A stretch of DNA of 24,558 nucleotides from a virus: positions 1-24,558 of IMG/VR virus record IMGVR_UViG_3300023242_000935. One strand, written 5' to 3'. The notes under the pieces are model-generated. The model searched no databases, had not been told where the DNA came from, and saw nothing but the letters and a program-made list of their open reading frames with translations. The position numbers were made by a program, and so were the translations under genes. Positions 2,768-20,462 of this stretch are shown here, one piece after another. Position 1 is the stretch's first letter. Every line of letters starts with the position of its first letter.

Positions 2768-3178
2768 TTACATTATAATTATATTGTTTATTTTAGGGGT
2801 CATAGTGTATTCTTGTAAATCATTTTGGTTAGTTGCAAAGAATTTACCCCTATAAATTTCATCTGTTTTATCTTCATTATATAAAGTACCCTCGAAACTG
2901 TCACTATTTTGAATATTTTCCAATACAAAAGTTATTTTTACAAAGTTACCATCTTCTTCTGCTATCACTTCAATTTCTAATAAAATATTGGTAAGCTCAT
3001 TTAACAGCACTAAAGTCATATTAGGATAAAAACGTCTTGGTATTAACCTTATAACATATGTATCGGGGGCTAATTCCATATTATCTGCGGTTATGTCCAT
3101 ATTATCTGCGGTTATGTCCATATTATCTGCGGTTATGACATCTTCATAACCGCCACCATCTAATCTTATTATATTCAT
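2768..3178 (-). CDS. Conserved phage protein of unknown function with an ITADNMD tandem repeat
   Basis: I recognise the general type: small beta-rich proteins encoded among structural genes of Bacteroidetes phages, with a pattern like 'Y-x-I-R-L-x-P-R-x-F-Y-P' (about residues 41-52) and a C-terminal 'Y-R-G-K-F-F-A-T-N-Q-N-D-L-Q-E-Y' (about 109-124). The function is not established. Residues 15-35 are three tandem copies of a seven-residue unit (ITADNMD, last residue E in the third copy), coded by near-perfect 21-bp DNA repeats. The gene is the first after a strong terminator-like hairpin and is preceded by a TTAACAA-N14-CTCTTTAT element, so it probably heads the transcript carrying portal, adaptor, fibres and lysis genes. 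A minor virion protein is the likeliest role, by inference. Confidence 0.6.
   Translation of the reverse strand: MNIIRLDGGGYEDVITADNMDITADNMDITADNMELAPDTYVIRLIPRRFYPNMTLVLLNELTNILLEIEVIAEEDGNFVKITFVLENIQNSDSFEGTLYNEDKTDEIYRGKFFATNQNDLQEYTMTPKINNIIIM
3076..3138 (-). repeat. In-frame tandem repeat, 3 x 21 bp
   Basis: Copies lie at 3076-3096, 3097-3117 and 3118-3138. They are identical except for the last base of the third copy. Each encodes one seven-residue unit of the 136-residue protein. Copy number could change by slippage without breaking the frame. Confidence 0.9.
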
Positions 3179-3181
3179 ACC

Positions 3182-3210
3182 ATAAAGAGGGTTTTTTATT
3201 TGTTTGTTAA
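3182..3210 (-). promoter_or_regulatory. Two-box late element upstream of the 136-residue protein
   Basis: On the minus strand TTAACAA (3210-3204) and CTCTTTAT (3189-3182) are separated by 14 nt. The same pair with the same spacing occurs at 5879-5907 and 15060-15088, and with 13 nt spacing and ATAACAA at 16887-16914. The second box ends 3 nt before the ATG. It may be a phage-specific promoter or a translational element. Confidence 0.45.
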
Positions 3211-3214
3211 ATAC

Positions 3215-3253
3215 AAAAAAAACCGCTCTAATTATAGTGCGGTTTTTTTTTTT
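3215..3253 (-). terminator. Rho-independent terminator after the tail tube gene
   Basis: On the minus strand, eleven A, then CCGC, a 12-nt loop region and GCGG are followed by eight T. The A/T runs extend the stem. The hairpin starts 17 nt after the stop of the gene at 3271-3813 and lies just before the next two-box element. Its symmetry would let it work on both strands, but only the leftward direction has a gene feeding into it. Confidence 0.75.
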
Positions 3254-3270
3254 GTAGTTAATTATAGTTA

Positions 3271-3813
3271 TTAACCTGGGATATTTGACGCTGAAGCTAA
3301 AGCTTTTAAAGCTGTAACGCTTACATCATTCAAATAAAAGATAGGGTCTTTTTCAACACCTGTAGCGGTTAAAGTGTAACCGTTTAATGAGTCTTTTGCA
3401 CCACCTACTTGAGCTGTACCCGCAACTTCATTGCCTTCTTCTGTTCCCATTAGGAATATCTGACCAGAGCTTAACTCAACAAATACCTGTGGCCTACCCC
3501 ACGCCATCATTTTAACTTGGTATTCCATTTCTTTATCCAATTTTGTTAAAATAAACGTAAGTACGGGACTGAAAGTAGTAGTTCCAGTGTCTCTATTTGA
3601 CGTAATAGCTTGGCTAAAACTGTTTCCTGTGTTTTTCAACGAGTATTTAAAAACTTCTGTTAAATCACCCAAATCGGTTAGTATATTACCTGAATCGGTT
3701 GAGGATGTAACAAAGTTATATTCGTCATAATTTGCTAAATAGATGGCTTTAAAACCTGATATGGCGTTTTTACAAACTAATGCATTTTTTCCTTTACTTA
3801 TATTGCAACTCAT
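3271..3813 (-). CDS. Putative major tail tube protein
   Basis: A 180-residue beta-rich protein. The N-terminus (MSCNISKGKNALVCKNAISG, then FKAIYLANYDEY) matches a common type in Bacteroidetes phages next to the capsid genes. The late segment GGAKDSLNGYTLTATGVEKD (about residues 137-156) resembles the end of tail tube proteins, where a conserved 'D-x-N-G-Y-x-L-x-x-x-G' strand precedes a final hairpin. The tail tube forms stacked hexameric rings around the tape measure. It follows the major capsid gene by 62 nt and is followed by a terminator, so head and tube may share one transcript. A capsid decoration protein is the alternative, but the strand pattern fits a tube better. Confidence 0.6.
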   Translation of the reverse strand: MSCNISKGKNALVCKNAISGFKAIYLANYDEYNFVTSSTDSGNILTDLGDLTEVFKYSLKNTGNSFSQAITSNRDTGTTTFSPVLTFILTKLDKEMEYQVKMMAWGRPQVFVELSSGQIFLMGTEEGNEVAGTAQVGGAKDSLNGYTLTATGVEKDPIFYLNDVSVTALKALASASNIPG

Positions 3814-3840
3814 TTTTCTATGTTTTTTAGTTTATAAATA

Positions 3841-3861
3841 AGGGGAGTATTTCATCCCCCT
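3841..3861 (-). terminator. Weak hairpin between capsid and tail tube genes
   Basis: On the minus strand AGGGG and CCCCT pair around an 11-nt loop, 14 nt after the capsid stop. The downstream sequence is TATTTATAAAC, not a clean T run. It may only partly terminate, or may protect the 3' end of the capsid message. It would help set a high capsid to lower downstream ratio. Confidence 0.4.
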
Positions 3862-3875
3862 ATTATTATTATAAT

Positions 3876-4763
3876 TTACGCTGGTCTTGCGTATACAATT
3901 TCTTGGCCAAATGAATAACCTACATTAGCTGAGTACTTCATTTTAGTTCTAAAGTCGCTTTCCATCGCTCTATCTTCAATTAACACTTCGTTTAAATCTG
4001 ATTCCAATCCCGTCAAGAAACCTACGTTTTTAACTCGATAAATTGCAATAGTATTTGCTGGCAAACCACCAATAGATTCCATTCTAACTCCTAAGTAATC
4101 TAATTCTTTTTCACCGACGTAAGTGTTTAATCCTTGGTCTGCGATAGCTCTTTTGTAAGATTTTGCTACATTTTTAGAAACTGCCATTACTAAATCTTCG
4201 TCATCTTCTACTGCGTCGATAACTGCGTCATAAGCTGCATCTAATTGAGCAATAACGTTTGCTTTAGTAACTGCTAAGATTGTTACATCTACTACTTGCG
4301 CATCTGCCGCCCATTGGGTTAACAAACCATTAAAAGAGTCTGCATCGTTATTTCCAACCCAAATTTGAGCATCAATGATGGTACCCATATTACCAACCAT
4401 TGCTTCTAAAAGAGCTTCTTGGATTGTTGATGGTAATTCTGATTCTGCTCCGAATAAATTCAAAGCACGAGCTTGAAAAGTTGCTGCAAAATCTTCTTTA
4501 CATAATTCATTTTTGATTTCAAGTCTTTTTAAAACTACTTCTTTATCTGTGTAATTCACTGAACCTGATGGTGAAAAACCACAGCTAGCAGCTGCTTGAG
4601 CCGAAGTGAAAGATAATTTAGGTAAAAAACCTGAACCTAATACGTTAGGTATAACTGTGATTGCATTTTTAGCAATTGTGTCTGATTTTTTGAACGCTTG
4701 AACGAAGATTTCGCCAGCTAATTCACCTGAATATCCGCTGTTTACTGTTACTGTTGTTGGCAT
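3876..4763 (-). CDS. Major capsid protein, HK97-fold type
   Basis: A 295-residue protein at the position expected for the capsid gene, directly after the protease/scaffold gene. The N-terminus (VNSGYSGELAGEIFVQAFKK, about residues 7-26) is typical for Bacteroidetes phage capsid proteins, as is the TDKEVVLKRLEIKNELCKEDF region (about 72-92), which would be the extended E-loop and spine strand area. The stretch AVSKNVAKSYKRAI (about 194-207) and the C-terminal GYSFGQEIVYARP fit the P- and A-domains. No long N-terminal delta domain is visible, so assembly probably uses the separate scaffold. It is one of the genes preceded by an A-rich leader (ten A in a row before TTATT-ATG), consistent with strong translation. 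The HK97 fold is inferred, not seen. Confidence 0.8.
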   Translation of the reverse strand: MPTTVTVNSGYSGELAGEIFVQAFKKSDTIAKNAITVIPNVLGSGFLPKLSFTSAQAAASCGFSPSGSVNYTDKEVVLKRLEIKNELCKEDFAATFQARALNLFGAESELPSTIQEALLEAMVGNMGTIIDAQIWVGNNDADSFNGLLTQWAADAQVVDVTILAVTKANVIAQLDAAYDAVIDAVEDDEDLVMAVSKNVAKSYKRAIADQGLNTYVGEKELDYLGVRMESIGGLPANTIAIYRVKNVGFLTGLESDLNEVLIEDRAMESDFRTKMKYSANVGYSFGQEIVYARPA

Positions 4764-4783
4764 AATAATTTTTTTTTTGTTTA

Positions 4784-5326
4784 TTAATTGTTTGTTATTC
4801 TTCTAATTGCTTCTAATGTTGATTCTTTACCAACTTTAGTTTGTTTTACTGATTGTGATTTTAATCTAAAATCTGCTGGAATATTTGAAAGTAATTCGTT
4901 TTCTCTTTTTAACTCCTCATTTTTAGCTTTTTCTTCTGCTAAGCTAATTGTCAATTCGTCAATTGTTGCTTGTAACGCCAAAGTTGGGTCAACCGCTTCA
5001 ATTTCTACTTTGGCTACTTCTGTTGTAGCTTCTTCTGTAACTTCTGCTACTTCGGCTTCTGTAATGTTAGCCTCTTCCATTGGAGTTAAAGTAGCTGATA
5101 CAATAACACCGTTTTCATCTGTTTGAAAAGATGTGCCCTCATACATAAAGGAAATATTAGCAGCTTCTATAACGTTTCCGTTTTCTTCTTCTCGAAATAC
5201 TGTCTGTCCCTCGGTAAATGAATCCGCAACTAAAATTCCAAACTCATCAACTTGAATTGACGCTAATTCTACTTTTTCCTCTTTTTTATCGGAAAACAAT
5301 TTAACTAATTCTTTTAAAATACTCAT
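4784..5326 (-). CDS. Nested in-frame scaffold protein (internal start within the protease gene)
   Basis: The ATG at 5326-5324 (M184 of the fusion) opens a 180-residue product starting MSILKELVKLFSDKK. It is preceded by AAACAAGAAAAA, the same type of A-rich leader seen before other starts in this genome. The residues after it form a complete scaffold-like unit (beta domain, acidic region, coiled coil, basic tail). In lambda, the scaffold Nu3 is likewise translated from within the protease gene C, so an excess of scaffold over protease can be made. The start is inferred from sequence context only; the same region is certainly also made as part of the fusion. Confidence 0.5.
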   Translation of the reverse strand: MSILKELVKLFSDKKEEKVELASIQVDEFGILVADSFTEGQTVFREEENGNVIEAANISFMYEGTSFQTDENGVIVSATLTPMEEANITEAEVAEVTEEATTEVAKVEIEAVDPTLALQATIDELTISLAEEKAKNEELKRENELLSNIPADFRLKSQSVKQTKVGKESTLEAIRRITNN

Positions 5327-5875
5327 TTTTTCTTGTTTTTTTTGTTTAATTTTTTGGATTTTTAAAAAGGAATCTATCGAAAAACCTTTTGCCTTACCCG
5401 TTACTATATATTCGCTCCAAAGAGCTTCTGATAATTTCATTGTGACTACCCAGCTGCCTTTTGGTACATTCTTCAATCCTAATGAATTTGACTTGTCGTT
5501 GCTTGGGTCATTTACTATCCAACTTTCAACTATCGATGTACCTTCTAACCATTTATCATCTTCGTGATTAAAAGTAGTATTTCTTTGGTAACCCTTTTTT
5601 AAGAAATCTTGGCTTATTGTTTCTATTGTATCGGCCTCAAATTTCAAATTATAGTATTCATTTGAATTGTTAAATTTTCTTTTAATCAATTGTTCGGGGG
5701 CTAACACCACACCTGTAATAGTCCTTTTAGCTATATTAGCTAACTTTATAGTTTCAATCATTTCTGATAACGCTATAAATTCAAATTGATTAGCTGGTAA
5801 ATCTACAATGGATATACCATAAACTTCGCCATTCTCATCTTCCTCGGTATAAACTGCTCGGTATAATTCTTCCAT
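4784..5875 (-). CDS. Prohead maturation protease (XkdF/S78-like) fused to a scaffold domain
   Basis: A 363-residue protein. Residues 1-175 resemble the XkdF-type serine protease that trims scaffold and capsid during head maturation: FNHEDD with H104, GTSIVESWIV (112-121), GSWVVTMKL (140-148) and KGFSIDSFL with S166 as the likely nucleophile. Residues 184-363 look like a scaffold: a small beta repeat domain (about 205-265), an acidic E/A/V-rich part (266-295), a coiled coil (about 298-330) and a basic tail that may bind the capsid shell. An internal ATG with an A-rich leader at residue 184 could make the scaffold alone. It precedes the capsid gene by 20 nt and has a two-box element just upstream of its start. 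The protease family assignment is quite sure, the catalytic residues less so. Confidence 0.75.
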   Translation of the reverse strand: MEELYRAVYTEEDENGEVYGISIVDLPANQFEFIALSEMIETIKLANIAKRTITGVVLAPEQLIKRKFNNSNEYYNLKFEADTIETISQDFLKKGYQRNTTFNHEDDKWLEGTSIVESWIVNDPSNDKSNSLGLKNVPKGSWVVTMKLSEALWSEYIVTGKAKGFSIDSFLKIQKIKQKKQEKMSILKELVKLFSDKKEEKVELASIQVDEFGILVADSFTEGQTVFREEENGNVIEAANISFMYEGTSFQTDENGVIVSATLTPMEEANITEAEVAEVTEEATTEVAKVEIEAVDPTLALQATIDELTISLAEEKAKNEELKRENELLSNIPADFRLKSQSVKQTKVGKESTLEAIRRITNN

Positions 5876-5878
5876 AGC

Positions 5879-5907
5879 ATAAAGAGTATGTTATATTGTT
5901 TTGTTAA
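5879..5907 (-). promoter_or_regulatory. Two-box late element upstream of the protease/scaffold gene
   Basis: On the minus strand TTAACAA (5907-5901), 14 nt, then CTCTTTAT (5886-5879), ending 3 nt before the ATG at 5875. It shares TATTTAACAAA upstream with the 3182-3210 copy. It lies between the tape measure stop (5912) and the protease start, so it would start or boost a head-gene transcript. Confidence 0.45.
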
Positions 5908-5911
5908 ATAT

Positions 5912-7639
5912 TTAATCTAAAAAGGTACTATTTCTAATTCTATTTCTGTCCAATTGTTGTTGAGAAGAAACATCTGAACCTATTACATATGCATTTACTG
6001 GTCTGTTTTCACGGTTGTTTAACGATTGGGCTAATTGATTAGATGTTGATTGCCCAACTATATTAAATGATGCTTCGGGGGCACTACCTCGGCCACCACC
6101 TGTTCCACCACCGCTACCACCAAGACCTCCACCTGTTCCACCACCACCTGAGAGTAAAGATTTAGCTCTTGATATGTTTGAAACCACTTGAGTCGCTGTT
6201 GATGCATATGAAATAACCCTTGCAACTGTTCCCGCACCTGGTAACAATGGAAATGCTAATTGAGCCGCAACACCTTCTGCATTAGCCAACGTACTTGCCT
6301 TACTTATCGCAACTGCACTATCTATACCAATTTGAGTTAACGCTATAGCTTTTGATATAGCTTGACCTGTTTTAGTTTTCGCTAAATTAGTGCTTTGGAT
6401 GTTGTTAATTATATTTGATAGATTTTGTTGGGAGCCTGCGATTGCTTCATCCTTTCTTATTTGAAATGCTAAGTCCTCTTCATCTTGTTTTCTCTTATCA
6501 AAAAATACCTTCGTGTCTTTTGCAACTATAGAGTCTAATCTTTCTTGCTCTTCTTCTTCCTCAATAACTCTATTTTCTTTAGCTTTTTCCTTTTGCTCAT
6601 CTTCAAACTTTCTGCCCGCATCTGCACCCGCAACAGCCGCATCGAATTGACGTTTAGCTTCATCTTCTCTTGCTTTTTTAGCTTCTGCGTTAAATTTGTC
6701 TCTTGCTTTTACTGCGTCTTCATCTGCTTTTTTCTGTATTGCGGCTAATCTGTTAACTCTATCTGTTTCAATTTCAACATTTGCAACTTTACCATCTAAA
6801 ACAATACCTTTGATTTGTTTCTGTCTATCATTCCATCTAGTAATTTCTTCCTCGGTAGCCTCACCACTTTTAATTCTAGCTCTTTCGGCATCGTTTAATG
6901 ATTGTAGTGTTAATAATATTGCATCCCTTTTAGCCTTTTCTAATTGAACCGTTGATTTACCAGCCGCTTTTGCTAATCTAATCTCACTGTCATACTTTTC
7001 AGTTATAGATTGCTCTTCTTTATTAAGGGCTTTTATACGTTTTTCTGCATTTATTGCTGCTTGTTTAGTAATGTCATCGTCTATAATTCCAAAGAATTCT
7101 AACGCTGAAACAACACCCCTAATAACACCTATCAACGGAAACATTACACTTATTAAAAATTTAGTACCCTCGCCTAAACCTTTAAATTTATCAATACTTT
7201 TTGATACGAAAGCTGTTACTTTATCAAAATTAGCTATAAGCAATCCTAAGCCAATTACCAATAATCCAACCCCCGTTAATGCCAAGGCAATTCTAAAACC
7301 TTTCATCGCCCCTGTTGATGTACCTACAACACCAGCATAAACGGTCTGTATTCCCGTTAATATTTTACCCTCTTTACCAAATAAAGCACTAGCTTCAACC
7401 GAATCTTTTAAAATCTGAGCATAACCATTGGTAAGTGTATTAAGAATTCCCATCGCTCCACCATTATCTAAAACACCTTGAGTGTTAGAGCTTTGGCTAC
7501 TAGTTAAATTATCAGTGCTTTGTGCTACTTTTTTTAAGTTATCATCAACTTGTTCAAGGTTGTTATCAATCTTATTTATACCCGCTGATGCGTTATCGTC
7601 TATACCAATTTCTAAAATCTTTTTAATTTTATCTGCCAT
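5912..7639 (-). CDS. Tail tape measure protein
   Basis: A 575-residue protein that sets tail length and is ejected with the DNA. It shows the usual mix: an N-terminal helical region (residues 1-60), a hydrophobic stretch at about 115-190 with ALALTGVGLLVIGLGLLIANF (possible membrane insertion), a long charged coiled coil rich in K, E, A, D, R (about 200-400), another hydrophobic part (about 425-485) and a glycine-rich linker (about 497-520). The end, PVNAYVIGSDVSSQQQLDRN (about 547-566), is a pattern I know from tape measure C-termini in Bacteroidetes phages. At roughly 0.15 nm per residue it predicts a tail of about 85 nm. It follows the chaperone genes, as usual, but the gene after it is the head protease, which is not usual. 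Confidence 0.85.
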   Translation of the reverse strand: MADKIKKILEIGIDDNASAGINKIDNNLEQVDDNLKKVAQSTDNLTSSQSSNTQGVLDNGGAMGILNTLTNGYAQILKDSVEASALFGKEGKILTGIQTVYAGVVGTSTGAMKGFRIALALTGVGLLVIGLGLLIANFDKVTAFVSKSIDKFKGLGEGTKFLISVMFPLIGVIRGVVSALEFFGIIDDDITKQAAINAEKRIKALNKEEQSITEKYDSEIRLAKAAGKSTVQLEKAKRDAILLTLQSLNDAERARIKSGEATEEEITRWNDRQKQIKGIVLDGKVANVEIETDRVNRLAAIQKKADEDAVKARDKFNAEAKKAREDEAKRQFDAAVAGADAGRKFEDEQKEKAKENRVIEEEEEQERLDSIVAKDTKVFFDKRKQDEEDLAFQIRKDEAIAGSQQNLSNIINNIQSTNLAKTKTGQAISKAIALTQIGIDSAVAISKASTLANAEGVAAQLAFPLLPGAGTVARVISYASTATQVVSNISRAKSLLSGGGGTGGGLGGSGGGTGGGRGSAPEASFNIVGQSTSNQLAQSLNNRENRPVNAYVIGSDVSSQQQLDRNRIRNSTFLD

Positions 7640-7751
7640 TTGTTAATATTTTAAGCCATTTCGGCATTTCGTTTATTCCTTTTGCTATTTTTATAAAGGG
7701 TGTTTGTTTACCTTTATGTTCTTTTAAGTATTCTATTGTTTTTGTTATCAT
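7629..7751 (-). CDS. Small 40-residue protein between chaperone and tape measure genes
   Basis: A short frame starting at ATG 7751-7749 and stopping at TAA 7631-7629. It begins MITKTIEYLKEHKGKQTPFI and is basic. Its start overlaps the stop of the frameshifted chaperone frame by 4 nt (ATGA), and its end overlaps the tape measure start by 11 nt. This coupling, and the lack of any other use for the 108 bases between the two, suggest it is translated. I do not recognise the family. It could also be just a coupling device that delivers ribosomes to the tape measure start. Confidence 0.5.
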   Translation of the reverse strand: MITKTIEYLKEHKGKQTPFIKIAKGINEMPKWLKILTNGR

Positions 7752-8020
7752 TTTTTAGCTATTTTTTGATTATCCAATTCTGTTTTTCTAATATAAAAGT
7801 TGATGAAAGTTAAAAATTCTAAAGCGGGGGATTCTGTAACGGCATTAATCAGTAGGTAGTTTTCATTTGATGCGACAAACAACATTTGATACCATCCAAA
7901 TTCTTCCGAAAAACCTTGTTCTTCACCACCTGAAAAATCTTCTTGTTTATGGCCCTCTTCAATTTCATTTACTTTATAGACATATTTAAACTGCTCAATA
8001 ACTCGTTGTTTAAATGGTAA
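7748..8020 (-). CDS. Tail assembly chaperone, frameshift extension (T domain of a G-T fusion)
   Basis: This 90-codon frame has no start of its own in a sensible place, but a -1 shift at the T run 8027-8019 joins it to the first 142 residues of the upstream chaperone, making a 232-residue product. The extension begins LPFKQRVIEQFKYVYK, has an acidic middle, and ends with FGWYQMLFVASNENYLL...ALEFLTFINFYIRK, a pattern seen in the second part of G-T chaperones, which recruit the tail tube to the tape measure. Location directly before the tape measure gene is the classic place. The stop TGA at 7750-7748 overlaps the ATG of the next small gene. The fusion is inferred from frame and position. Confidence 0.75.
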   Translation of the reverse strand, partial: LPFKQRVIEQFKYVYKVNEIEEGHKQEDFSGGEEQGFSEEFGWYQMLFVASNENYLLINAVTESPALEFLTFINFYIRKTELDNQKIAKK

Positions 8021-8445
8021 AAAAAAACCAGCATTCCTAAATAATACTCGTACGGTAGGTCTAAAAAGTGGTCGTTTGAACCCTCATACTTTTCTATATG
8101 ATATAGTTTTCTAAATTTTCCACTAATAGGTCGGTATAAAATACTCATTAGCTCGTGGATTAACGTTTCATCATTTTGTAAATTCTCAATATCAATCCAT
8201 TCACCCGCTGTAATATCGTCTAAATTAGGTATAAATCCATATTCTGTTCCCTTATGTATAAACCTTTGGGTGAACACTGGTACTTGTTCATTGTAGGGTT
8301 TTAAAAAAGCTTCCAATTCATCCAAAGTTAAATGCTCCAAATTAAACTGCTTAATAAAGGCTCTATTAGCCTCTAACTCATTATTTTCGTGTGTCTCGGC
8401 TATTTTCTTGATAGCGTATGAATCCTTAATTGTCATTTTTCTCAT
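7969..8445 (-). CDS. Tail assembly chaperone (G-like, unshifted product)
   Basis: A 158-residue, mostly helical protein upstream of the tape measure gene. In siphoviruses this gene makes two products: G without shifting, and G-T after a -1 shift; both coat the tape measure during tail assembly. Recognisable features are the helical N-terminus and a central segment GFIPNLDDITAGEWIDIENL (about residues 70-89), a pattern ('F-I-P-x-L-x-x-I-x-x-G-E-x-x-D-I') common in Bacteroidetes phage chaperones. The last 16 residues after the slippery run are unlike the rest and would be the G-specific end. The start at 8445 overlaps the stop of the previous gene by one base. Confidence 0.7.
   Translation of the reverse strand: MRKMTIKDSYAIKKIAETHENNELEANRAFIKQFNLEHLTLDELEAFLKPYNEQVPVFTQRFIHKGTEYGFIPNLDDITAGEWIDIENLQNDETLIHELMSILYRPISGKFRKLYHIEKYEGSNDHFLDLPYEYYLGMLVFFYHLNNELLSSLNMSIK
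7984..8026 (-). promoter_or_regulatory. Programmed -1 frameshift site: slippery T run with downstream stem
   Basis: In the frame of the chaperone the codons are GTT TTT TTT TAC. The heptamer T-TTT-TTT (8026-8020) lets both Phe tRNAs slip back one base. A stem of ATTTAAAC (8015-8008) with GTTTAAAT (7991-7984), loop 16 nt, begins 4 nt after codon TTA. The stem is AT-only apart from one pair, so its strength is uncertain. A +1 shift meets a stop within three codons, so only -1 is productive. Confidence 0.75.
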
Positions 8446-10523
8446 TAGTAAATATCTTTAAATAGGTTTAGGTCTGCGTCGCCTGTTACAATGTTAATTT
8501 TATAATCGTTTATTTTAAATCTTTGGTCTACAATTACCAATCTGTCATTCAATTTTATATCTTCAATAATTCTACTTGGCAAAACTGCCTTACATTCTAC
8601 CTTTCTTTGCTTGATATTATATATTGTATCAAACCATCCTTTCCAAAAGTTGAAGAATAAGCTTTTGCTAACCTCTCTTTGATGCCACGGGTCAAATTCT
8701 TGTCCAAAATTTAAGCTGGTTGTCACATCGTTGAAAACACTGTTATCGGTGTTACTTACTAACTTATAGCTATTCAATGTTGTGGGTGTACCATTGTTAA
8801 ATTTAAAGCTTAGCGGATTATCTGTAATATCTTGAATGCCATTAAAAAAAAATAATATAGGTTTCATAGTTTTATTTTCTTCTAATGTTATACCATCACT
8901 AGTAAGTTTAGATGCTTGTCCAATTAAGATATTTAAGGTAGGGTCAATACCATCTGATTCTGGTATACTAGCATCAAAAAGTCTTTCAAATAACATATTT
9001 TCAAATGGCACTTTTATTACTAATTCTTTTTTATCACTTATTTTTTTTGTACTACTTAAATCACCATAACCAATATTATTTAAATTAACGTCTTTAAACT
9101 TTTTACCCAATACATTTTCCGTTGCCTCAAATTTAAAATCTACATCCGAAAATATATCGGGTCTTTTTACCAGAATACTTGATTGGTCTACAAAAGCGGT
9201 GATATCAATAATTTTACCACCTAAATAGAAATTATCTATAGTATTTAGATAAAAATCATTATTAGTTATAGGTTGAATTACCAATTTAAAAAGTTTCATC
9301 ACCCCCTGTAAAAAATCTAAAACTTTAATCTTTGGTAAGTTATCACTGACGCTGTAATTGAACCCCTCACCTGAATCATTTGGCAATGTTATAGTAAAAG
9401 GGTCATCTCTATATCCTAACCTTAAAATAAAACTAAAGATAAATGCGGGAGGTGATGAAATATGAAACGTTAAATTTCTAGTTGTTGGGGTAGGTGAATC
9501 TAAAGCGCCAATATAAAGAAGTGTTGATGTACCATCCCCTCCATCAAAATCTATTGTTTTAATAGTATTTCCGTTATCCTTTATAATTAATCGGTATGGT
9601 ATATTAACTGTTAAAGTTGTAATATCTATTTTATAATTATGCCATAGGTGGTCTGTATCTTGAAATGTCCAGACATTAGTAGCATAATTATAACCTACAC
9701 TTGTTAAATTGTTTGGTAACGCATCATTTACTATTAACTGTCTCTCTGTAAAATTATCATCACTAGTTTTAAGAGCTATAAACAACTTTTGAAACATTCT
9801 GGAATCTAGAATTTGTCTTGAAAATGTAATACCGTATTTTTCTTCAATTGCATTAAATATGTTAATAACTTTTAAAGCTGATTTTAATTCTTTATTTAAT
9901 ATAGCTGTTGGTCCCAATGAAATGTCGGTTGCATCTGCTGTACCATAATTCCAATCCCTATTTGCGTAAGCTATCAACGGTGTAATTAAATTATTATCCA
10001 AATAACTGTTATCGTTGATAGTTTTTAATAGATTAGTTTGATTATAAGGAAAATCAAATTGGCTAAAATTACTTCTATTTTTAACTAAACTTGAACCCAC
10101 TAAATCAAACTCTAATAAATCAATTGTGTCGTTTCCAAATAAATCGCTTAATTGACTCACTTTTGAATAGAATCCAATCTTGTAGTTATCTGGCACGCTA
10201 TCCTTTATTTCAACGGATTCCAATTGTAGCTGTCCAATTTTAAAAGTAAAGGTATCTATTTCTAAAATTGCATTAACCCTTACATTAGCGTCAAAAGTAT
10301 TATCGATATCTAAATCATAATAGTGCTTAAATTTTCTATTATTACTTGGGGTTGCTGGTACTGTAAATGATAGCGAAAAATCACTGAAAATGCTTGATAA
10401 TTTCTCGATATCGTTGATTTTATTTACAACATTAACCGCTTCATCTTCAAATAAATCAATCTGTTCACCATTAAAAGGTAGATTAGGTGAGCTAATGTTA
10501 TCAATATATAATTTTATTTTCAT
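8445..10523 (-). CDS. Baseplate / distal tail protein
   Basis: A 692-residue, beta-rich protein of a type found in Bacteroidetes phages beside the chaperone and tape measure genes. The N-terminal part has a 'FSLSFTVPATPSNNRKFKHYY' region (about residues 49-69) that I associate with these baseplate proteins. The C-terminal part, about residues 620-692, has FFNFWKGWFDTIYN and ends with DQRFKINDYKINIVTGDADL. It probably forms part of the hub or distal tail ring, binding the tape measure end and the fibre-bearing protein encoded just upstream. It overlaps its neighbours by one base on each side, so the three genes form one translational unit. No enzymatic motif is visible. Role is inferred from context. 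Confidence 0.6.
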   Translation of the reverse strand: MKIKLYIDNISSPNLPFNGEQIDLFEDEAVNVVNKINDIEKLSSIFSDFSLSFTVPATPSNNRKFKHYYDLDIDNTFDANVRVNAILEIDTFTFKIGQLQLESVEIKDSVPDNYKIGFYSKVSQLSDLFGNDTIDLLEFDLVGSSLVKNRSNFSQFDFPYNQTNLLKTINDNSYLDNNLITPLIAYANRDWNYGTADATDISLGPTAILNKELKSALKVINIFNAIEEKYGITFSRQILDSRMFQKLFIALKTSDDNFTERQLIVNDALPNNLTSVGYNYATNVWTFQDTDHLWHNYKIDITTLTVNIPYRLIIKDNGNTIKTIDFDGGDGTSTLLYIGALDSPTPTTRNLTFHISSPPAFIFSFILRLGYRDDPFTITLPNDSGEGFNYSVSDNLPKIKVLDFLQGVMKLFKLVIQPITNNDFYLNTIDNFYLGGKIIDITAFVDQSSILVKRPDIFSDVDFKFEATENVLGKKFKDVNLNNIGYGDLSSTKKISDKKELVIKVPFENMLFERLFDASIPESDGIDPTLNILIGQASKLTSDGITLEENKTMKPILFFFNGIQDITDNPLSFKFNNGTPTTLNSYKLVSNTDNSVFNDVTTSLNFGQEFDPWHQREVSKSLFFNFWKGWFDTIYNIKQRKVECKAVLPSRIIEDIKLNDRLVIVDQRFKINDYKINIVTGDADLNLFKDIY

Positions 10524-13500
10524 TATAAAATGTTTTTTACTCTATTATGGCTTTCTGTAACTTCAAATGTGTATTGAATTAATCCATCATTATTACTTGT
10601 CTTAAATGTCTGCGATGTATTGTCTAAAGTTATAGGTATCATTTCATTATTTTCTGTTAATAACCAAATTTCTTCACTAAAAAACATCTCTTCAATTGCT
10701 GTATTCATATATTCAGGTAGAAAATTAGTGTTAATTGTGTATTTAATCTTACCCGTTGAGTTGAACTGTTTTGTTGTGTGTCTAGTATTGTTAAAATTAC
10801 CATTGAAATCAACAATACTTCTGTTAAATTTTTGTGATTCTTTCTCCAATTGTCTAATTACCTTTTTAGTGACGGGTAAAGATTCTGCTACTCCCCACTT
10901 GTTTTTATAAACCAAAGAATTAACGGGGTATTTACATTCGTCATATACCTCAAATGTAACGACTTTTTGAAATTCCCCCCCAAATACATCCTCATATAAG
11001 AATAAATATCTAACAAGTTTATTTACGCCTGTTAAATCAACTCTAAAGCTTTGTATGAAGTTGGTGTTTTGTGTGATATCTATATTAAAAGTTATAGGTA
11101 AATTCTCTTGAAAGTTTTTAACTTGTGTTGCGCTGATTAATCTATTAGCTTGAAAGTAAACTCTTTGAATTTGATTTCTGTTAATATATCTCTTGTCGCC
11201 CGTCATTAATATTTGAGGTAGATTTTGCTCTTCAATAGGATTTAAATAACCGTCGGTAACATATAAATTCTTCACGTAGGTAGCTACACTAACATCTGCT
11301 AAAAAAGTTTCATAATTAACCTTTACCCACTTACTAACGTTAGGTGATAATGGTTTAGCTATAAGTAAATCTTGGTTTAGAAATTCATTTGCGCTGAATT
11401 CTAAGTCTTCCTTACATAAATTACTAACGTTTATAAAAATCGTATCCTGTAAATTATTAACTTTTTGTTTTGTTTTTGAATACAAAATAGGGAATGTATC
11501 TGCATCAAATAAATTGCCCTCAAAGATTCGTATATCAAAAGTAACACTATCAAAATCTGTTTCATTAGCTTTTATAAAGTGAGGGCTTCTAACTACTATT
11601 TCATCGACTATATCTGTTATCAATAATGATTCATTTATAGATGTAATTTCAACGTGGTCGGGTGTGTCGTAAACGCTTTGTAAAACAATTTGTTCATCTT
11701 CAAACTCATATTCAACTGTAACTACATTGCCATCAATTGAGTGAGTTAAAGAGGCTAAATCGTGAAATAACATAAAGTTATCAAATGTGTTTTGTACAGT
11801 TTGTTGTAAATTTACTAGGCTGTTTGCCAATGTACCATCTGTATTTAGTAAAAATATTCCTCTTGGAACGGATATATTATTATAAAGTGTCCAAGGACCT
11901 CCAATAATATATAATTTATCATTATATACTGTTATATTTCTCACAAAAATAAATAAATTAGGTATACCACTACCCATCACAAAAGCTGTATTTCTAGTAC
12001 CGTCTAAATTTAAAGAAATTATTCTATTAGCTCCTATACCATCATAACTTGTGAAATAGCCTCCAACATATAGTTTATCATTATATATTTCTATCTCAAT
12101 TATTTCTATATCACTTATTTCATTATCAAAACCTGTACCATATAGAAAAGCCGTATTTATTGTACCATCTAAATTTAAAGAAATTATTCTATTAGCTCCT
12201 AAACCATCATAACTTGTGAAAGAACCTCCAACATATAATTTATCATTATATATTTCTATTTTTGATACTCTATCATTAAAACCACTACCCATCACAAAAG
12301 CCGTATTTCTAGTACCATCTAAATTTAAAGAAATTATTCTATTAGCTCCTATACCATCATAACTTGTGAAAGAACCTCCAACATATAATTTATCATTATA
12401 TATTTCTATTTTTAATACTGCACTATTAAAACCTGTACCATATAGAAAAGCTGTATTTCTAGTACCGTCTAAATTTAAAGAAATTATTCTATTAGCTCCT
12501 ATACCATCATAACTTGTGAAAGAACCTCCAACATATAGTTTATCATTATGTACTGTTATATTTCTCACAGAAGTCAAACTACCAGTTACACCACTACCCA
12601 TCACAAAAGCCGTATTTCTAGTACCGTCTAAATTTAATGAGATTATTCTATTAGCTTCTACACCATCATAACTTGTGAAAAAGCCTCCAACATATAGTTT
12701 ATCATTATGTATTTCTATAGTCATTATATCACTATTAAAACCTGTACCATATAGAAAATCCGTATTTATTGTACCATCTAAATTTAAAGAAATTATTCTA
12801 TTAGCTCCTATATCATCATAACTTGTGAAACTTCCAACAATATATAATTTATCATTATGTATTATAGAATCGTATATAATTCCTGAACTATTAACACCTA
12901 CACCAAAATTAACTAAAATATCATCTGCTAGGGGTATAGTTGTTAAAGTTTGTGTTGCAACGCCCCCCTCTTGAAATTGCGTAAATGCTCCACCTAAAAT
13001 AACATCGTTTGATTTTGCATTAGCCACAAAAATGATATTGTTAAATTCTAAGCTTGTATGTGTTGTTAAATCTGTGAATACATTATTAAAAACTGGGGAT
13101 TCATTTAATTCAGTTAGTTTTCCCACAAAAACAAAAGTACCATTTGGTTTAATTTTGATGTCCAAAACATAGTCACCACCTGTTGTAAATCCTAGCCCGA
13201 ATACATTACCATCAAATACGCCTGTTGAAAGTGTTCTAACGACTCTACCAACTGCGTTTCCATTGTATGTTGTAAAGTCACCACCAAAATATAATAAACC
13301 TGTACTTGTTTCGGCAACGGTTAAAACTCTTGCGTTAAAACCTACAGTAAAGTTAATTAAAGCTGTACCACTTGTGTTAATTTTAACTGCTCTATTAGTC
13401 GTTACTCCTTTATAAGATAAGAAAGCACCTACAACTATTAAACCACCGCTAACATTTAATATTTTATCCACTATTTGGCTGAATCCTGTACCACTATTAA

Positions 13501-14182
13501 AGTTTGAATTTATACTACCTGAAAAGTTTAAGCTGATTATTCTCTTAACACTCGTATTCAATGCTGCTAAAAATGCTCCACCTATATATAAGTTTAAACC
13601 GTCCACTTCAATAGCTGTTACAGATGCACTAAATCCTGGGGCTTGACCTGCTGCCATTATAGTATTTGTGAATGATGCAACGAAGTTACCTAAAGGATTG
13701 ATTTGAGCTAACCTATTGGTTAACACACCGTTGAATGTTGTAAAGTCACCACCAAAAACTACTACATTATTTGGCAAAGACTTAACAGCTCTCACCACTG
13801 CATTTGCTCCTTGGCCTAAAGGGTATCTTCTGTACACTGTATAATCTGGGTTTAATATAATAATTCTTTCTGAAACTTCATTATCATACGTGGTGAAATC
13901 ACCACCTATAACAATCTTGCCATCGGGTCTTGTTTCAATCGCTAATACATTCCCATTTAAATCTTTTAAAACATCGCTTATTGCTAGGGCTGTATTTACC
14001 AGCGCTATCCTTTCTATATTGCTTACAACTATATCATCATCGACAAAAGTTTTTTGATAGCTTGAGGTTGTCACCCCACCATCTGTAAATGTTAAAGGTA
14101 CACCGTTATTAATTATTTCAAATCCAAATTGGTCTCCACTTCTTGGGTCAATATGGTCTACGTTAATTGTTAATTTTCTCAT
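10523..14182 (-). CDS. Baseplate protein with an inserted 14-blade beta-propeller region (delta-60-type repeats)
   Basis: A 1219-residue protein with three parts. Residues 1-70 (MRKLTINVDHIDPRSGDQFG...) are a conserved tail-protein start. Residues about 75-790 hold 14 repeats of the form 'h-x-I-x-x-x-x-D-K-h-h-h-G-G-x-F-T-x-Y', then 'R-I-I-x-L-N-x-D-G-T': seven diverged (to about 425) and seven of which the inner ones are nearly identical (about 433-790). This matches delta-60-type propeller repeats. Residues about 800-1219 are a conserved baseplate domain containing YINRNQIQRVYFQANRLI, ECKYP, NKWGV and MFFSEEIWLL. The propellers probably project from the baseplate and bind a host surface glycan or protein. 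The start overlaps the previous gene's stop by 20 nt. The repeat count is by eye and the receptor role is inference. Confidence 0.75.
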   Translation of the reverse strand: MRKLTINVDHIDPRSGDQFGFEIINNGVPLTFTDGGVTTSSYQKTFVDDDIVVSNIERIALVNTALAISDVLKDLNGNVLAIETRPDGKIVIGGDFTTYDNEVSERIIILNPDYTVYRRYPLGQGANAVVRAVKSLPNNVVVFGGDFTTFNGVLTNRLAQINPLGNFVASFTNTIMAAGQAPGFSASVTAIEVDGLNLYIGGAFLAALNTSVKRIISLNFSGSINSNFNSGTGFSQIVDKILNVSGGLIVVGAFLSYKGVTTNRAVKINTSGTALINFTVGFNARVLTVAETSTGLLYFGGDFTTYNGNAVGRVVRTLSTGVFDGNVFGLGFTTGGDYVLDIKIKPNGTFVFVGKLTELNESPVFNNVFTDLTTHTSLEFNNIIFVANAKSNDVILGGAFTQFQEGGVATQTLTTIPLADDILVNFGVGVNSSGIIYDSIIHNDKLYIVGSFTSYDDIGANRIISLNLDGTINTDFLYGTGFNSDIMTIEIHNDKLYVGGFFTSYDGVEANRIISLNLDGTRNTAFVMGSGVTGSLTSVRNITVHNDKLYVGGSFTSYDGIGANRIISLNLDGTRNTAFLYGTGFNSAVLKIEIYNDKLYVGGSFTSYDGIGANRIISLNLDGTRNTAFVMGSGFNDRVSKIEIYNDKLYVGGSFTSYDGLGANRIISLNLDGTINTAFLYGTGFDNEISDIEIIEIEIYNDKLYVGGYFTSYDGIGANRIISLNLDGTRNTAFVMGSGIPNLFIFVRNITVYNDKLYIIGGPWTLYNNISVPRGIFLLNTDGTLANSLVNLQQTVQNTFDNFMLFHDLASLTHSIDGNVVTVEYEFEDEQIVLQSVYDTPDHVEITSINESLLITDIVDEIVVRSPHFIKANETDFDSVTFDIRIFEGNLFDADTFPILYSKTKQKVNNLQDTIFINVSNLCKEDLEFSANEFLNQDLLIAKPLSPNVSKWVKVNYETFLADVSVATYVKNLYVTDGYLNPIEEQNLPQILMTGDKRYINRNQIQRVYFQANRLISATQVKNFQENLPITFNIDITQNTNFIQSFRVDLTGVNKLVRYLFLYEDVFGGEFQKVVTFEVYDECKYPVNSLVYKNKWGVAESLPVTKKVIRQLEKESQKFNRSIVDFNGNFNNTRHTTKQFNSTGKIKYTINTNFLPEYMNTAIEEMFFSEEIWLLTENNEMIPITLDNTSQTFKTSNNDGLIQYTFEVTESHNRVKNIL
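11813..12886 (-). repeat. Homogenised propeller-blade coding repeats
   Basis: Seven tandem units of about 140-160 bp encode residues 433-790. The inner units share long near-identical blocks, for example around 12005-12080, 12180-12255, 12310-12390 and 12470-12545. Units alternate between endings coding AFVMGSG and FLYGTG. The similarity at DNA level means recent duplication or gene conversion. Confidence 0.85.
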
Positions 14183-14591
14183 TTTTTGCTAATTTTTCCC
14201 ACAATTCTTCTATTATATTATCACCTAATGTATTTATTTCTTTATCTAAAGTGCCATCGCCCTGTAAAAATGGCTGAGGTTTTATACCTTTTTTAAATAG
14301 TGAATTTTGTAGTGCATAAGGGTTAATCCCAACCGATGCACTATATCCTATTAGCGAACTAATAGGTGGCTTCTTTTTATTAAAGCTATAAGGGCTGCCT
14401 ACCCCTCTTTCTGTGCCGTTAATTCCTCTTTCGACAAAGTTTGCATATTCTAACATTTCAAAAGCTACGCCATCACCGTCGACTATACCACTTATAGAAT
14501 TTTTTAGGGTACCTGAGCTTTTAGGGGCATTCGTTTTTAAATATGCTTCATATCGCTCCTTAAATTTTTCTAATGACTTTTTCATTAACAA
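14163..14591 (-). CDS. HK97 gp10-like neck / tail completion protein
   Basis: A 142-residue basic protein. The pattern YLKTNAPKSSGTLKNSISGIV (about residues 18-38), then FEMLEYANFVERGINGTE (about 44-61) and KKGIKPQPFLQ (about 114-124) is typical of the HK97 gp10 family: an N-terminal helix, 'sGtLr-S', a strand with 'Y-A-x-x-v-E-x-G', and 'p-x-P-F'. These proteins sit in the neck and help join tail to head. It overlaps the upstream gene by 7 nt and the downstream gene by 20 nt. M3 (14585) is an equally possible start. Its distance from the portal and adaptor is unusual. Confidence 0.65.
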   Translation of the reverse strand: MLMKKSLEKFKERYEAYLKTNAPKSSGTLKNSISGIVDGDGVAFEMLEYANFVERGINGTERGVGSPYSFNKKKPPISSLIGYSASVGINPYALQNSLFKKGIKPQPFLQGDGTLDKEINTLGDNIIEELWEKLAKNEKINN

Positions 14592-15043
14592 ACTTCTATA
14601 TTGCCATTTGCCATTTCTAAACTAATATTGATGCTCCAACCATCTAAAGTATTTAACCCACTCATAAATAATGGCGTTGCCGCTGATACTCCTGTCAATT
14701 CAATATCAAATTCATTATTTTGCAACTTCAAATACGTCATTAAATCATTTAGTATGAAAAATGTTGTATTTAAATTATACAAAGCATTATCATTGCCCTC
14801 AAATTTAGTTGTTGTTTCTTCTTTTCTCATATCCCTTTGCGTTAGGGCCCCTATTTGTAATTCAAATATAACAGTAGTACCATTTGTATATGGTGCTTGA
14901 ATAGGGTTGATATAGCATAAAGGGTATATGTTCTTCTTCTGTAAGTCACTTGCTTCTGATAGTGCAAAGATAACTGTATGTACCATTGGATTAGCACTTA
15001 ATCTATCTTTAACTAATTGAATAACGTCATAAAATTCTGTCAT
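14585..15043 (-). CDS. Putative tail terminator protein
   Basis: A 152-residue protein with an N-terminal helix (FYDVIQLVKDRLSANPMVHT), several strands, and a C-terminal LDGWSINISLEM (about residues 132-143). The arrangement, together with its place next to the HK97 gp10-like gene, fits the tail terminator that caps the tube and joins it to the neck. Two features that support a structural role are the length (terminators are often 120-150 residues) and the absence of catalytic motifs. It follows the large terminase and is preceded by its own two-box element with a perfect 18-bp palindrome, so it may begin the tail transcript. Family assignment is tentative. Confidence 0.45.
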   Translation of the reverse strand: MTEFYDVIQLVKDRLSANPMVHTVIFALSEASDLQKKNIYPLCYINPIQAPYTNGTTVIFELQIGALTQRDMRKEETTTKFEGNDNALYNLNTTFFILNDLMTYLKLQNNEFDIELTGVSAATPLFMSGLNTLDGWSINISLEMANGNIEVC

Positions 15044-15059
15044 AGTATTTTGGTTTATT

Positions 15060-15088
15060 ATAAAGAGTACTCTTTATCTTATTGTTAA
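15060..15088 (-). promoter_or_regulatory. Two-box late element with an 18-bp perfect palindrome, upstream of the tail block
   Basis: On the minus strand TTAACAA (15088-15082), 14 nt, then CTCTTTAT (15067-15060). Here the second box is one half of the perfect palindrome ATAAAGAGTACTCTTTAT (15060-15077). The element ends 16 nt before the ATG, the only one of four copies with room for a leader. Confidence 0.5.
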
Positions 15089-16384
15089 TCTTGTTCTTAT
15101 TATTCCAACCTCAAAGTACATTCTCAACATAATAGCGTCCGAATAATCGGGGCTTCGGTTCAACATACTTTTGGTAGTTTCCTTATTTTGTATTTTCAAT
15201 TTACCATCTTTATCCAAATCCGATGCTTTAATTTGTTCAAATTCTTCTATTATTTCTTCTTTTTGTGCAGCTGAGATTGCAGCTGAAATATATAGGCTAT
15301 TTGATTGGGTCATTTCTGCAAGTTTATAGTAGCATTGTGTTTTAAGATTCTGATAATTTTCATTATTTAGTGCTTTTGAATTATTTACAAAACCAATACA
15401 TTTTAACATATCTGTTAATCCACCACCAACTCCATCATCATCAACTATTACTCGGGTTAAAGATACATTGTGCTTAACTCGTAACGCTATAATAGCTGTG
15501 TTTAAGGTAGTTATAGAGCTTTTGGCATAAGTGAATATTTCAATTACTTCTAAACCTCGCCAAACAATTATTACTGCTTTATCTTTTCCATATCTTGCGG
15601 GGTCAACCGTAATATAAGTTGGGGCCAGAAGGTTAATGTTAAATATATTTGAAAATAAATTTTCAATATTTTCATAATCAATTAAACTGGTTGGGTCGTC
15701 ATCTGTTTCCCACAACCCTAAATATAATCTATCTCTTAAGTTTTTAGGTAGCGAATTCAAATTGTCAATATACTTTTTTGGTAGATATGGATTATCCTTT
15801 GCCAATGAGGCGATAAACCTTCTTCCTGGTAAAATTGAGCCGTTCTTTTCTGGTTTATAAAAATCTGCATAAACAAAACCTTTGGATGGATTGCAAGTTC
15901 CAAAAATGACACCTTTCAAATTGTATTCTTCTAACTTATATCTGATTCGGGATTTAACAACACTCCAAGCAAGGCTTACTAATTGATTACATTCGTCTAT
16001 AAAAGCGCCTGATATTTCCAACGAACCTAATTCATCAAAGTTCTTATCTGATGGATAAAAAAATAAATCTTTCATTAATATTTCAGTTCCGTTATATAAT
16101 GTGATTATATTGCTCTGATGATTAATTTTAAAATGTATATCTGGTTTTACCCCTTGCATTTGACAAACTTCTAAAAAGGTATTTAGGGTTGTTTCTTTTA
16201 GGGTCTTTAATTTAGAACGACCCATCAGCCATCTTGTGCCAGGATATTTTAGTGAGTTTTTTAGCAACCAATAGCAACCTAATAAGGATTTAGCACCACC
16301 AGCACCACCACCAAATATAAATTCAGTAGTGGTGGAATCTTCTAAAATATCTAAAGCTTCTCGTTGCTTATGAGTTAATATCAC
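15074..16384 (-). CDS. terL: Large terminase subunit (DNA packaging ATPase and nuclease)
   Basis: A 436-residue TerL. The ATPase part has a Walker A-type GGGAGGAKS (residues 25-33), Walker B FIDE (128-131) and a coupling motif TCNPS (163-167). The nuclease part has the acidic residues D261 in VDPARYGKD, D315-D317 in IVDDDGVGGG and D413/D416 in SPDYSDA, which bind the metal ions. It packages DNA through the portal and cuts the concatemer. The start is GTG at 16384-16382: the frame has a TAA four codons upstream and no ATG until later, and the protein starts sensibly (MILTHKQREA). It is 13 nt after the small terminase gene. Confidence 0.95.
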   Translation of the reverse strand: MILTHKQREALDILEDSTTTEFIFGGGAGGAKSLLGCYWLLKNSLKYPGTRWLMGRSKLKTLKETTLNTFLEVCQMQGVKPDIHFKINHQSNIITLYNGTEILMKDLFFYPSDKNFDELGSLEISGAFIDECNQLVSLAWSVVKSRIRYKLEEYNLKGVIFGTCNPSKGFVYADFYKPEKNGSILPGRRFIASLAKDNPYLPKKYIDNLNSLPKNLRDRLYLGLWETDDDPTSLIDYENIENLFSNIFNINLLAPTYITVDPARYGKDKAVIIVWRGLEVIEIFTYAKSSITTLNTAIIALRVKHNVSLTRVIVDDDGVGGGLTDMLKCIGFVNNSKALNNENYQNLKTQCYYKLAEMTQSNSLYISAAISAAQKEEIIEEFEQIKASDLDKDGKLKIQNKETTKSMLNRSPDYSDAIMLRMYFEVGIIRTRLTIR

Positions 16385-16397
16385 GTATGGTATTTAT

Positions 16398-16883
16398 TTA
16401 TTTATTATCATCCTTATTTATAGTCTCTTCGACCCAAGTAATATCAATATTCTTTTGTTCTACTTCTGTTTTTTCTTTCCAACTTTCTGCTTTTCTGTTT
16501 CTTAACCAAAATTGTTGGTTTCTAAAATCACCTTGAATAATCTTTGTTTCTTCGACCATTTCAATTCTTTCCTTTTCTATCTTATTTCCATTTTCCCAAC
16601 TAACCTCTTTTAGTTTGATTGGGATTAAGGTCGTAATTACTCTATCGCTTGCTCCTTTATATAATGAATTAGCTACTTCCATATCTGCGTGAATTTTTCC
16701 ACTCTTGATGGAATCGAAGAATTTTGGATGTGCTAACTTCCAATTATTTATAGTTGATATATCTACGTCAAAAAAGCTTGCTATGTTTTTGTCAGTCGCC
16801 CCTAGCAAACAAAGCTTGTAAACTTGTTCATTATATTCCACCTTATATAAAGTTGGTTGTCCTGGTTTATTTGTTTTTTTCAT
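16398..16883 (-). CDS. terS: Small terminase subunit
   Basis: A 161-residue protein with a DNA-binding helix-turn-helix near the N-terminus: YKLCLLGATDKNIASFFDVD followed by ISTINNWKLAHPKFF (about residues 22-56). The downstream part (SIKSGKIHADMEVANSLYKGA, about 57-77) is the conserved oligomerisation region of this TerS type. It recognises the packaging site and regulates the large subunit, whose gene follows. The start at 16883 (MKKTNKPGQPTLYK) matches the usual short basic leader before the helical domain. A two-box element ends 3 nt upstream of the ATG. Where the packaging site lies is not visible. Confidence 0.9.
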   Translation of the reverse strand: MKKTNKPGQPTLYKVEYNEQVYKLCLLGATDKNIASFFDVDISTINNWKLAHPKFFDSIKSGKIHADMEVANSLYKGASDRVITTLIPIKLKEVSWENGNKIEKERIEMVEETKIIQGDFRNQQFWLRNRKAESWKEKTEVEQKNIDITWVEETINKDDNK

Positions 16884-16886
16884 ATA

Positions 16887-16914
16887 ATAAAGAGACTTTT
16901 TTTTTATTTGTTAT
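16887..16914 (-). promoter_or_regulatory. Two-box late element upstream of the small terminase gene
   Basis: On the minus strand ATAACAA (16914-16908), 13 nt mostly A, then CTCTTTAT (16894-16887), ending 3 nt before the ATG at 16883. It overlaps the stop region of the upstream gene (stop at 16904). It is the most divergent of the four copies: one base shorter spacing and A instead of T at the first position. Confidence 0.4.
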
Positions 16915-17365
16915 TGCGAACTACTATTAAGCGTTTAATCATAGTTCTGACTAATCCTGGGCAATTGCATCGTTCCAATTTAGTGCCAAACATACTATTA
17001 TATAATTTAAATAGGTCATCTACGTCTTTTGTTACAACAAGGCTTTCTGCTATTACTCTGTCCATTAACTCTTCTTCTTCTTCTGTTAATTGTCTTAAAT
17101 CTTTTTTCAAAAATGGAAACTCGTTTAATATTCTTTTTCTTCTAGCACATCCCTCACACTCTTCAAAACCTAATATTGATGTAACCCGTGAAATCAAATC
17201 ACCTAATCCGTTGATATTACCCTCTCTTCTGTCTTTATCGTCTAAAAAGACTGTGTTTAATTCATCAATTAGTTTAACCTGTGTTATTTTATAATCTTTA
17301 CCGTTCTTATTAACCCCATACCAATTTTCTTCTTTGAAATTGTATTCTTTATCGTTATAAATCAT
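16904..17365 (-). CDS. Cysteine-containing phage protein of unknown function, upstream of the terminase
   Basis: A 153-residue protein. Two parts resemble segments that I know from proteins encoded near terminases in Bacteroidetes phages. The first is GLGDLISRVTSILGFEECEGCARRKRILN (split here as 53-81), with C71 and C74 in a C-x-x-C-x-R-R arrangement. The second is DDLFKLYNSMFG followed by C-N-C and VRTMIKRL near the C-terminus. The four cysteines could bind one zinc ion. In other phages the two segments are usually found in separate small proteins, so this may be a fusion. It is 23 nt after the sigma-like gene and its end overlaps the terS control element. Function unknown. Confidence 0.6.
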   Translation of the reverse strand: MIYNDKEYNFKEENWYGVNKNGKDYKITQVKLIDELNTVFLDDKDRREGNINGLGDLISRVTSILGFEECEGCARRKRILNEFPFLKKDLRQLTEEEEELMDRVIAESLVVTKDVDDLFKLYNSMFGTKLERCNCPGLVRTMIKRLIVVRNNK

Positions 17366-19200: not shown

Positions 19201-19230
19201 TAAATATAAAGATAAATTGAAAAAGTCAAA
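19201..19230 (-). promoter_or_regulatory. Bacteroidetes-type promoter candidate for the nuclease-like gene
   Basis: On the minus strand TTTG (19230-19227), 18 nt, then TATATTTA (19208-19201), one base off the TAnnTTTG consensus. A leader of about 30 A/T-rich bases precedes the ATG at 19169. The upstream box overlaps the stop of the sigma-like gene. Confidence 0.4.
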
Positions 19231-20213: not shown

Positions 20214-20292
20214 TATAATTTTAATATGTTGATATAGTTTTTTATTTAAAATGTCTTAGGTTGAAGATATGACATAAATAATTTAATATTTA
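20214..20292 (+). repeat. 79-bp direct repeat, copy 1
   Basis: Identical to 20384-20462 at an offset of 170 bp. It includes the motif TTAGGTTGAAGATATGACA. A 22-base part (gatatag... to ...taaaat) recurs at 19971-19992. Both copies contain no gene. Confidence 0.9.
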
Positions 20293-20383
20293 CATTGTAT
20301 TCAATATTTATATTGAAGTATTTCTTTGTTTAAATAATTAAAAATATAATATATCAATTTTAAGCTTATCTAATAAACTATAT

Positions 20384-20462
20384 TATAATTTTAATATGTT
20401 GATATAGTTTTTTATTTAAAATGTCTTAGGTTGAAGATATGACATAAATAATTTAATATTTA
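20384..20462 (+). repeat. 79-bp direct repeat, copy 2
   Basis: Identical to 20214-20292. A second shorter direct repeat, TCAATTTTAAGCTTATCT, lies at 20354-20371 and 20484-20501, flanking this copy. Such repeats near an origin suggest past duplication or protein-binding arrays. Confidence 0.9.

Follow-up and report, generated by a model that had tools for sequence, protein, structure and literature searches.

The late promoters of the phages SPO1 (gp28, gp33/gp34) and T4 (gp55) are read by the host RNA polymerase together with a phage sigma factor, and bacterial promoters of the extracytoplasmic function (ECF) type, such as those of Bacillus subtilis SigW and SigM, carry an AAC/ACA-type -35 box and a CGT-type -10 box. 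In this paper we describe a repeated two-box element, WTAACAA-N13/14-CTCTTTAT, found in four copies on the minus strand of a viral DNA stretch of 24,558 nucleotides (nt) (IMG/VR record IMGVR_UViG_3300023242_000935, positions 1 to 24,558; hereafter the window). Each copy lies ahead of a late gene group, and the element is probably a phage late promoter. As in SPO1 and T4, phage-specific -35/-10-type boxes stand at the late units and small sigma-like proteins are encoded ahead of the late genes, but here the sigma factors are ECF-like in size, the boxes are different ones and the -10-type box abuts the start codon. With the ECF promoters the element shares the AAC/ACA-type -35 box, a similar spacing and, in related phages, a CGT-type -10 box, and of the two sigma-like proteins of the window one matches the TIGR02937 model clearly and the other weakly. 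Unlike the ECF promoters it serves phage late genes and is anchored on the ATG, and the window's CTCTTTAT lacks the CGT.

Other described systems resemble the element in one property each. The Thermus phage phiYS40 has leaderless middle and late mRNAs (PMC3594737), a precedent for late phage messages without a leader, although its host belongs to another phylum and in our case leaderlessness is predicted from the promoter position and not from initiation factors. In TA-led leaderless bacterial genes a -10-like box of the form TANNNT lies some 12 bp ahead of the start codon (PMC3160421). The distance is alike here, but the box differs (CTCTTTAT or CGTTATA) and is accompanied by a conserved -35-type box. 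Short phage-specific late promoters are also found in phiKZ (TATG; PMC4666361) and AR9 (AACA-N6-TA/G, with leaders of 26-491 nt; PMC5312081), and the tetranucleotide AACA is common to AR9 and our element. These promoters are, however, read by phage multisubunit polymerases and have a different spacing. No RNA polymerase gene is annotated in the record of the related Nonlabens phage P12024S; the window, which is possibly incomplete, was not searched for a multisubunit polymerase.

The four minus-strand pairs reported in the initial annotation are present in the window, and in three of them the second box indeed ends 3 nt before an ATG. The copy at 16887-16914 (ATAACAA at 16908-16914, N13, CTCTTTAT at 16887-16894) precedes the ATG of the terminase small subunit gene terS (16883) in this way, the copy at 5879-5907 (TTAACAA at 5901-5907, N14, CTCTTTAT at 5879-5886) that of the protease/scaffold gene (5875), and the copy at 3182-3210 (TTAACAA at 3204-3210, N14, CTCTTTAT at 3182-3189) that of a gene for a protein of 136 amino acids (3178). 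The last copy had been assigned to the portal block; more exactly, the 136-residue gene (2768-3178) comes first and the portal gene (1669-2763) second. In the remaining copy, at 15060-15088 (TTAACAA at 15082-15088, N14, CTCTTTAT at 15060-15067), the element overlaps the stop region of the terminase large subunit gene terL and stands 16 nt from the first tail gene (15043). All four occurrences of CTCTTTAT on the minus strand of the window are inside the two-box elements. The loose form [AT]TAACAA-N12-16-CTCTTTAT had a mean count of 0.001 on the minus strand when 2000 sequences were drawn from an order-2 Markov model, and none of these sequences contained two. Directly upstream of the pre-portal copy there is a minus-strand intrinsic terminator at 3215-3242, with a CCGC...GCGG hairpin followed by T8 (z = -5.0 against shuffles). 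Two further observations concern the boxes themselves. The second box of the tail copy forms one half of a palindrome of 18 bp without mismatch, ATAAAGAGTACTCTTTAT (15060-15077), which is absent from the other copies, and a TTAACAA without a second box is found at 7640-7646, immediately before the ATG of a 575-residue gene.

The comparison with related phages shows how far the element is conserved. The window TerL has 54% identity to that of Flavobacterium phage 11b, and the protease and portal are 32-37% identical to their counterparts in P12024S, which has the same gene order. Our search with a portal alignment resulted in 78 viral contigs, several of the comparison contigs being fragments, and a prophage search of genome contigs with the same alignment found none. 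In most of the 78 contigs the pre-portal and protease genes, which are preceded by an element in the window, have an ACAAA-type box, a spacer of N13-15 and a [CA]GTTATA-type box a few nt from the ATG. The geometry is conserved at the starts of the protease/scaffold, pre-portal and first tail genes of most relatives, while the letters are lineage-specific, as for example ACAAA-N13-15-CGTTATA, and in many relatives a terminator T-run is followed by the first box. P12024S contains seven two-box copies (typically AAACAA-N~15-CGTTAATA), all ending at an ATG: those of gp01 (protease), gp05 (pre-portal) and the five further genes gp08, gp35, gp41, gp44 and gp45. These sites partly match the window units, since both phages have a phrog_30964 gene as the first tail gene and a phrog_32048 gene shortly before the terminase genes. 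The contigs G001-G005 and G009-G011 also have a two-box element, and at the protease gene of L155 it reads TTAACAA-N14-CGTTATAG, with first box and spacer length identical to the window. In other lineages the letters differ: three late genes of G007, protease and pre-portal among them, have CAACTCTTCCA-type and TTTTGTTTCCTAT boxes ahead of the ATG, the tail, protease and pre-portal genes of G006 have GTTACA and AAGTATTAA, and the boxes are GGTGCCAAA and TAGTTT at two sites in L144 and GTAACAAA and TAGTTTAAT at three sites in G005. The initial annotation had called the pair conserved, and this holds for the layout, which dozens of related phages share at the corresponding late genes, but not for the exact letters of the window.

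The position relative to the start codon is as characteristic as the boxes. In 32 non-redundant pre-portal sites most of the information comes from two stretches, -31 to -27 and -12 to -9, and less of it from an AT at -2/-1; 18 of the sites match the core pattern and several others have a variant two-box element. Among 302 genes from five non-redundant sigma-bearing genomes, 14 have a second box that starts at -12 and 4 one that starts at -11, compared with an average of 0.18 genes and never more than 2 for the other offsets, and none of the 321 genes from five control genomes has it at -12/-11. Because the offset pattern was derived from the very relatives counted, it is the comparison between offsets and with the controls that carries weight, not the raw count. 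In the window three second boxes start at -11, and that of the tail block does not. For the pre-portal gene, the one gene examined in this respect, homologous N-termini begin at the annotated ATG across the relatives and align with the window protein from the ATG used here, which indicates that this start codon is correct. In Flavobacterium johnsoniae the -7 element extends from -12 to -5, counted from the first base of the transcript (PMC6847099). By this geometry a box at -12 from the ATG, as found in relatives, predicts a start at the A, and in the window transcription would start about one base past it.

The explanation which we favour, with a probability of roughly 0.78, is that the element is a phage late promoter read by the host RNA polymerase together with a phage-encoded ECF-like sigma factor, and that it gives rise to mostly leaderless mRNAs. 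TTAACAA would serve as its -35-type and CTCTTTAT as its -10-type box. Early and middle promoters would be read by the host's own sigma factor, leading to synthesis of the phage sigma, which would then turn on the four late units for terminase, tail, protease/capsid and portal. The late timing of the downstream transcripts is suggested by their content of structural and packaging genes. At three units the -10-type box occupies -11 to -4 from the ATG, so the first transcribed base is predicted on the ATG or within about 1-3 nt of it and the mRNAs would be leaderless, whereas the tail unit would have a short leader of roughly 12-15 nt. The idea of a phage-specific late promoter with leaderless messages, already raised in the initial annotation, is supported at the level of sequence by the promoter geometry, the distance to the ATG, the upstream terminators and the co-occurrence of sigma genes in relatives.

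Two sigma-like factors had been noticed in the window, and our profile searches show a clear match for one and a weak match for the other. The protein s1 (minus strand, 19226-19744) matches TIGR02937 with E = 5.5e-16, above the curated cut-off, while s2 (minus strand, 17389-17937) matches nearly the full model with E = 2.4e-7, below the curated cut-off, and has no Pfam match. An AlphaFold prediction of s2 from its single sequence was too poor to use (mean confidence score, pLDDT, 44.5). Searches with s1 found no close relative in the viral contigs, and searches with s2 none in the phage collection. All ten compared genomes of the portal family with a clear ATG-abutting element (G001-G005, G007, G009, G010, G011 and P12024S) encode an ECF-like protein of about 136-178 residues from one family, in most cases a few kilobases ahead of the late genes and mostly not far upstream of the terminase genes; in P12024S the candidate sigma is gp33. 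It is s2 that aligns with this family from end to end (hhalign E = 2e-6); s1 does so in region 4 only. Neither the sigma family nor an element at gene starts was found in 11b, phi10:1, P12002L, G021 and G008, but a missing sigma in contigs such as G008 is weak evidence, as several of the comparison contigs are fragments. The most likely reader is the host core polymerase with s2 or s1 as candidate sigma. We retain s1 because G006 shows only an s1-like sigma. This 25-kb contig (L146) has the overall layout of the window, circularly shifted, with divergent early genes behind TACCTTTG host-type promoters, the s1-like sigma, terminase, tail, protease and portal.

It is also conceivable, though unlikely, that the promoter is read by the host polymerase with a host alternative sigma or a phage activator. 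The weak match of s2, which lies below the cut-off and has no Pfam counterpart, would fit with this, and the window encodes a helix-turn-helix protein (21344-22171) as a possible activator. But sigma presence tracks the element in most of the compared genomes, and the letters vary by phage lineage, as is more to be expected if the reader is encoded by the phage than if it is common to the hosts. A rigid -35/-10 distance and a box at -12 are, moreover, what sigma factors read.

The fixed distance between second box and ATG in most copies raises the question whether the element might instead be a translation signal, i.e. an mRNA motif which aids initiation without a Shine-Dalgarno sequence. These hosts have no Shine-Dalgarno signals and their initiation is tuned by upstream bases (PMC6847099). 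We nevertheless regard this as improbable. A further box is conserved at -31 to -27 while the spacer is free, and the elements occur at the starts of units, often just after a terminator, and not before internal late genes such as the capsid gene. A promoter is also favoured because the same boxes are found 10-17 nt from the ATG as well, at the window tail gene and at the protease genes of G005 and G006. For this reason a purely translational or RNA-processing role, which had been offered as an alternative, fits less well. A cleavage site within longer late transcripts, for which the common orientation of the late genes and their possible co-transcription could speak, is very improbable given the strong terminator ahead of the pre-portal copy, the promoter-like spacing of the boxes and the lack of any Rfam family match in the window.

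The candidate phage promoter also stands apart from the host-type promoters in the same genomes. As the initial annotation stated, it is unlike the host consensus: CTCTTTAT lacks the TAnnTTTG -7 element, and real host-type promoters sit at early genes. In the window one of these, TTG-N20-TACCTTTG, is found on the plus strand at 22583-22613 before the divergent early gene at 22652; it has the textbook Bacteroidota form and a predicted leader of about 34 nt. With this canonical promoter besides the late elements, the window phage seems to use promoters of both the host and the phage type. In the compared phage genomes the leaders behind host-type promoters are mostly 12-59 nt long, apart from two with a length of 0. 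A promoter of this type (TTG-N-TATATTTG, 12-13 nt leader) also precedes the sigma gene of G009, G010 and G011, which is consistent with a cascade from host sigma to phage sigma. A generic sigma-70 promoter scan performed no better than on shuffled sequences.

Several observations weigh against our interpretation of a phage sigma and leaderless messages. The copies in the window tail block and some of those in G005, G006 and L144 stand farther from the ATG, so that leaderless messages would be common but not found at every unit. That these hosts translate such messages efficiently is an assumption, as F. johnsoniae messages are mostly leadered, 87% of them by more than 10 nt (PMC6847099). The control genome G022 encodes a distant member of the sigma family (26% identity) and has no recognised element, and the two sigma-like genes of the window are both candidates, with neither singled out. 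The exact letters of the window occur in at least two copies in no other IMG/VR contig except L140, where the ATG-anchored form has two matches. The exact-letter search with TTAACAA-N14-CTCTTTAT otherwise gave single, chance-like matches only, among the matches listed. L140 is another record of what is almost the same phage (99.8% identity over 13.4 kb) and has the elements at 5879 and 3182.

The genes served by the elements belong to a single minus-strand series, in the order s1, small genes, s2, the phrog_32048 gene, terS, terL, tail genes, protease/scaffold, probable capsid, the 136-residue gene and portal. The phrog_32048 gene (16904-17365) lies between s2 and terS (16398-16883; phrog_309, E = 5e-39), and terL (15074-16384; phrog_2, E = 8e-33) is followed by the first tail-block gene (14585-15043), whose phrog_30964 family members in P12024S and G003 are likewise preceded by the element. 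The protease/scaffold gene (4784-5875) encodes an XkdF-type Peptidase_S78_2 protein (E = 1e-12), and its element has the same position as in the relatives, which is also true of the pre-portal element in most of them. The likely major capsid gene (3876-4763; phrog_11320) has 37% identity to P12024S gp02, its role being suggested by synteny, and the portal is assigned to phrog_33693 (E = 5e-59). Within the 136-residue gene, downstream of its element, three perfect 21-bp repeats (3075-3137; ITADNMD/ITADNME) are found that the aligned relatives lack, and about five 150-bp repeats (11981-12863) lie within a 1219-residue tail-region protein. A non-coding, AT-rich stretch of 1.3 kb, which separates s1 from the divergent early genes, contains a palindromic unit of 22 bp, TGAGGTACTCACTCGAGTACGG, repeated perfectly 5.5 times (20754-20874), and two long near-identical AT-rich direct repeats (about 20220-20520). 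The palindromic repeats are a possible replication origin or control region. The helix-turn-helix protein mentioned above, an early protein of 275 residues with weak Crp/ParB-type matches, adjoins these iteron-like repeats and is possibly a replication initiator or regulator.

The host of the window phage is probably a member of the Bacteroidota, judging from the relatives and the promoter type of the early gene. Both late promoters that depend on a phage sigma and phage mRNAs without a leader are known, but we found their combination nowhere in the open literature which we searched. In the same literature, with most subscription journals outside it, we found no account of late promoters of Bacteroidota phages, and late gene control in these phages seems little described. 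Our analysis supplies a promoter code, candidate sigma factors, a transcript start predicted to the base and, with P12024S, an isolated phage. Orthogonal pairs of sigma factor and promoter for Bacteroidota would also be useful laboratory tools. We lean, by a small margin of confidence, towards the wider view that in a whole group of Bacteroidota phages the structural genes are transcribed without leaders from promoters anchored at the ATG, and that the promoter letters, particular to each lineage, have diverged along with the phage-encoded ECF-like sigma factor. If true, late translation would bypass leader-dependent initiation in hosts whose messages are mostly leadered. It would then be interesting to understand how such messages are translated late in infection by the ribosomes of Bacteroidota, which make no use of Shine-Dalgarno pairing.

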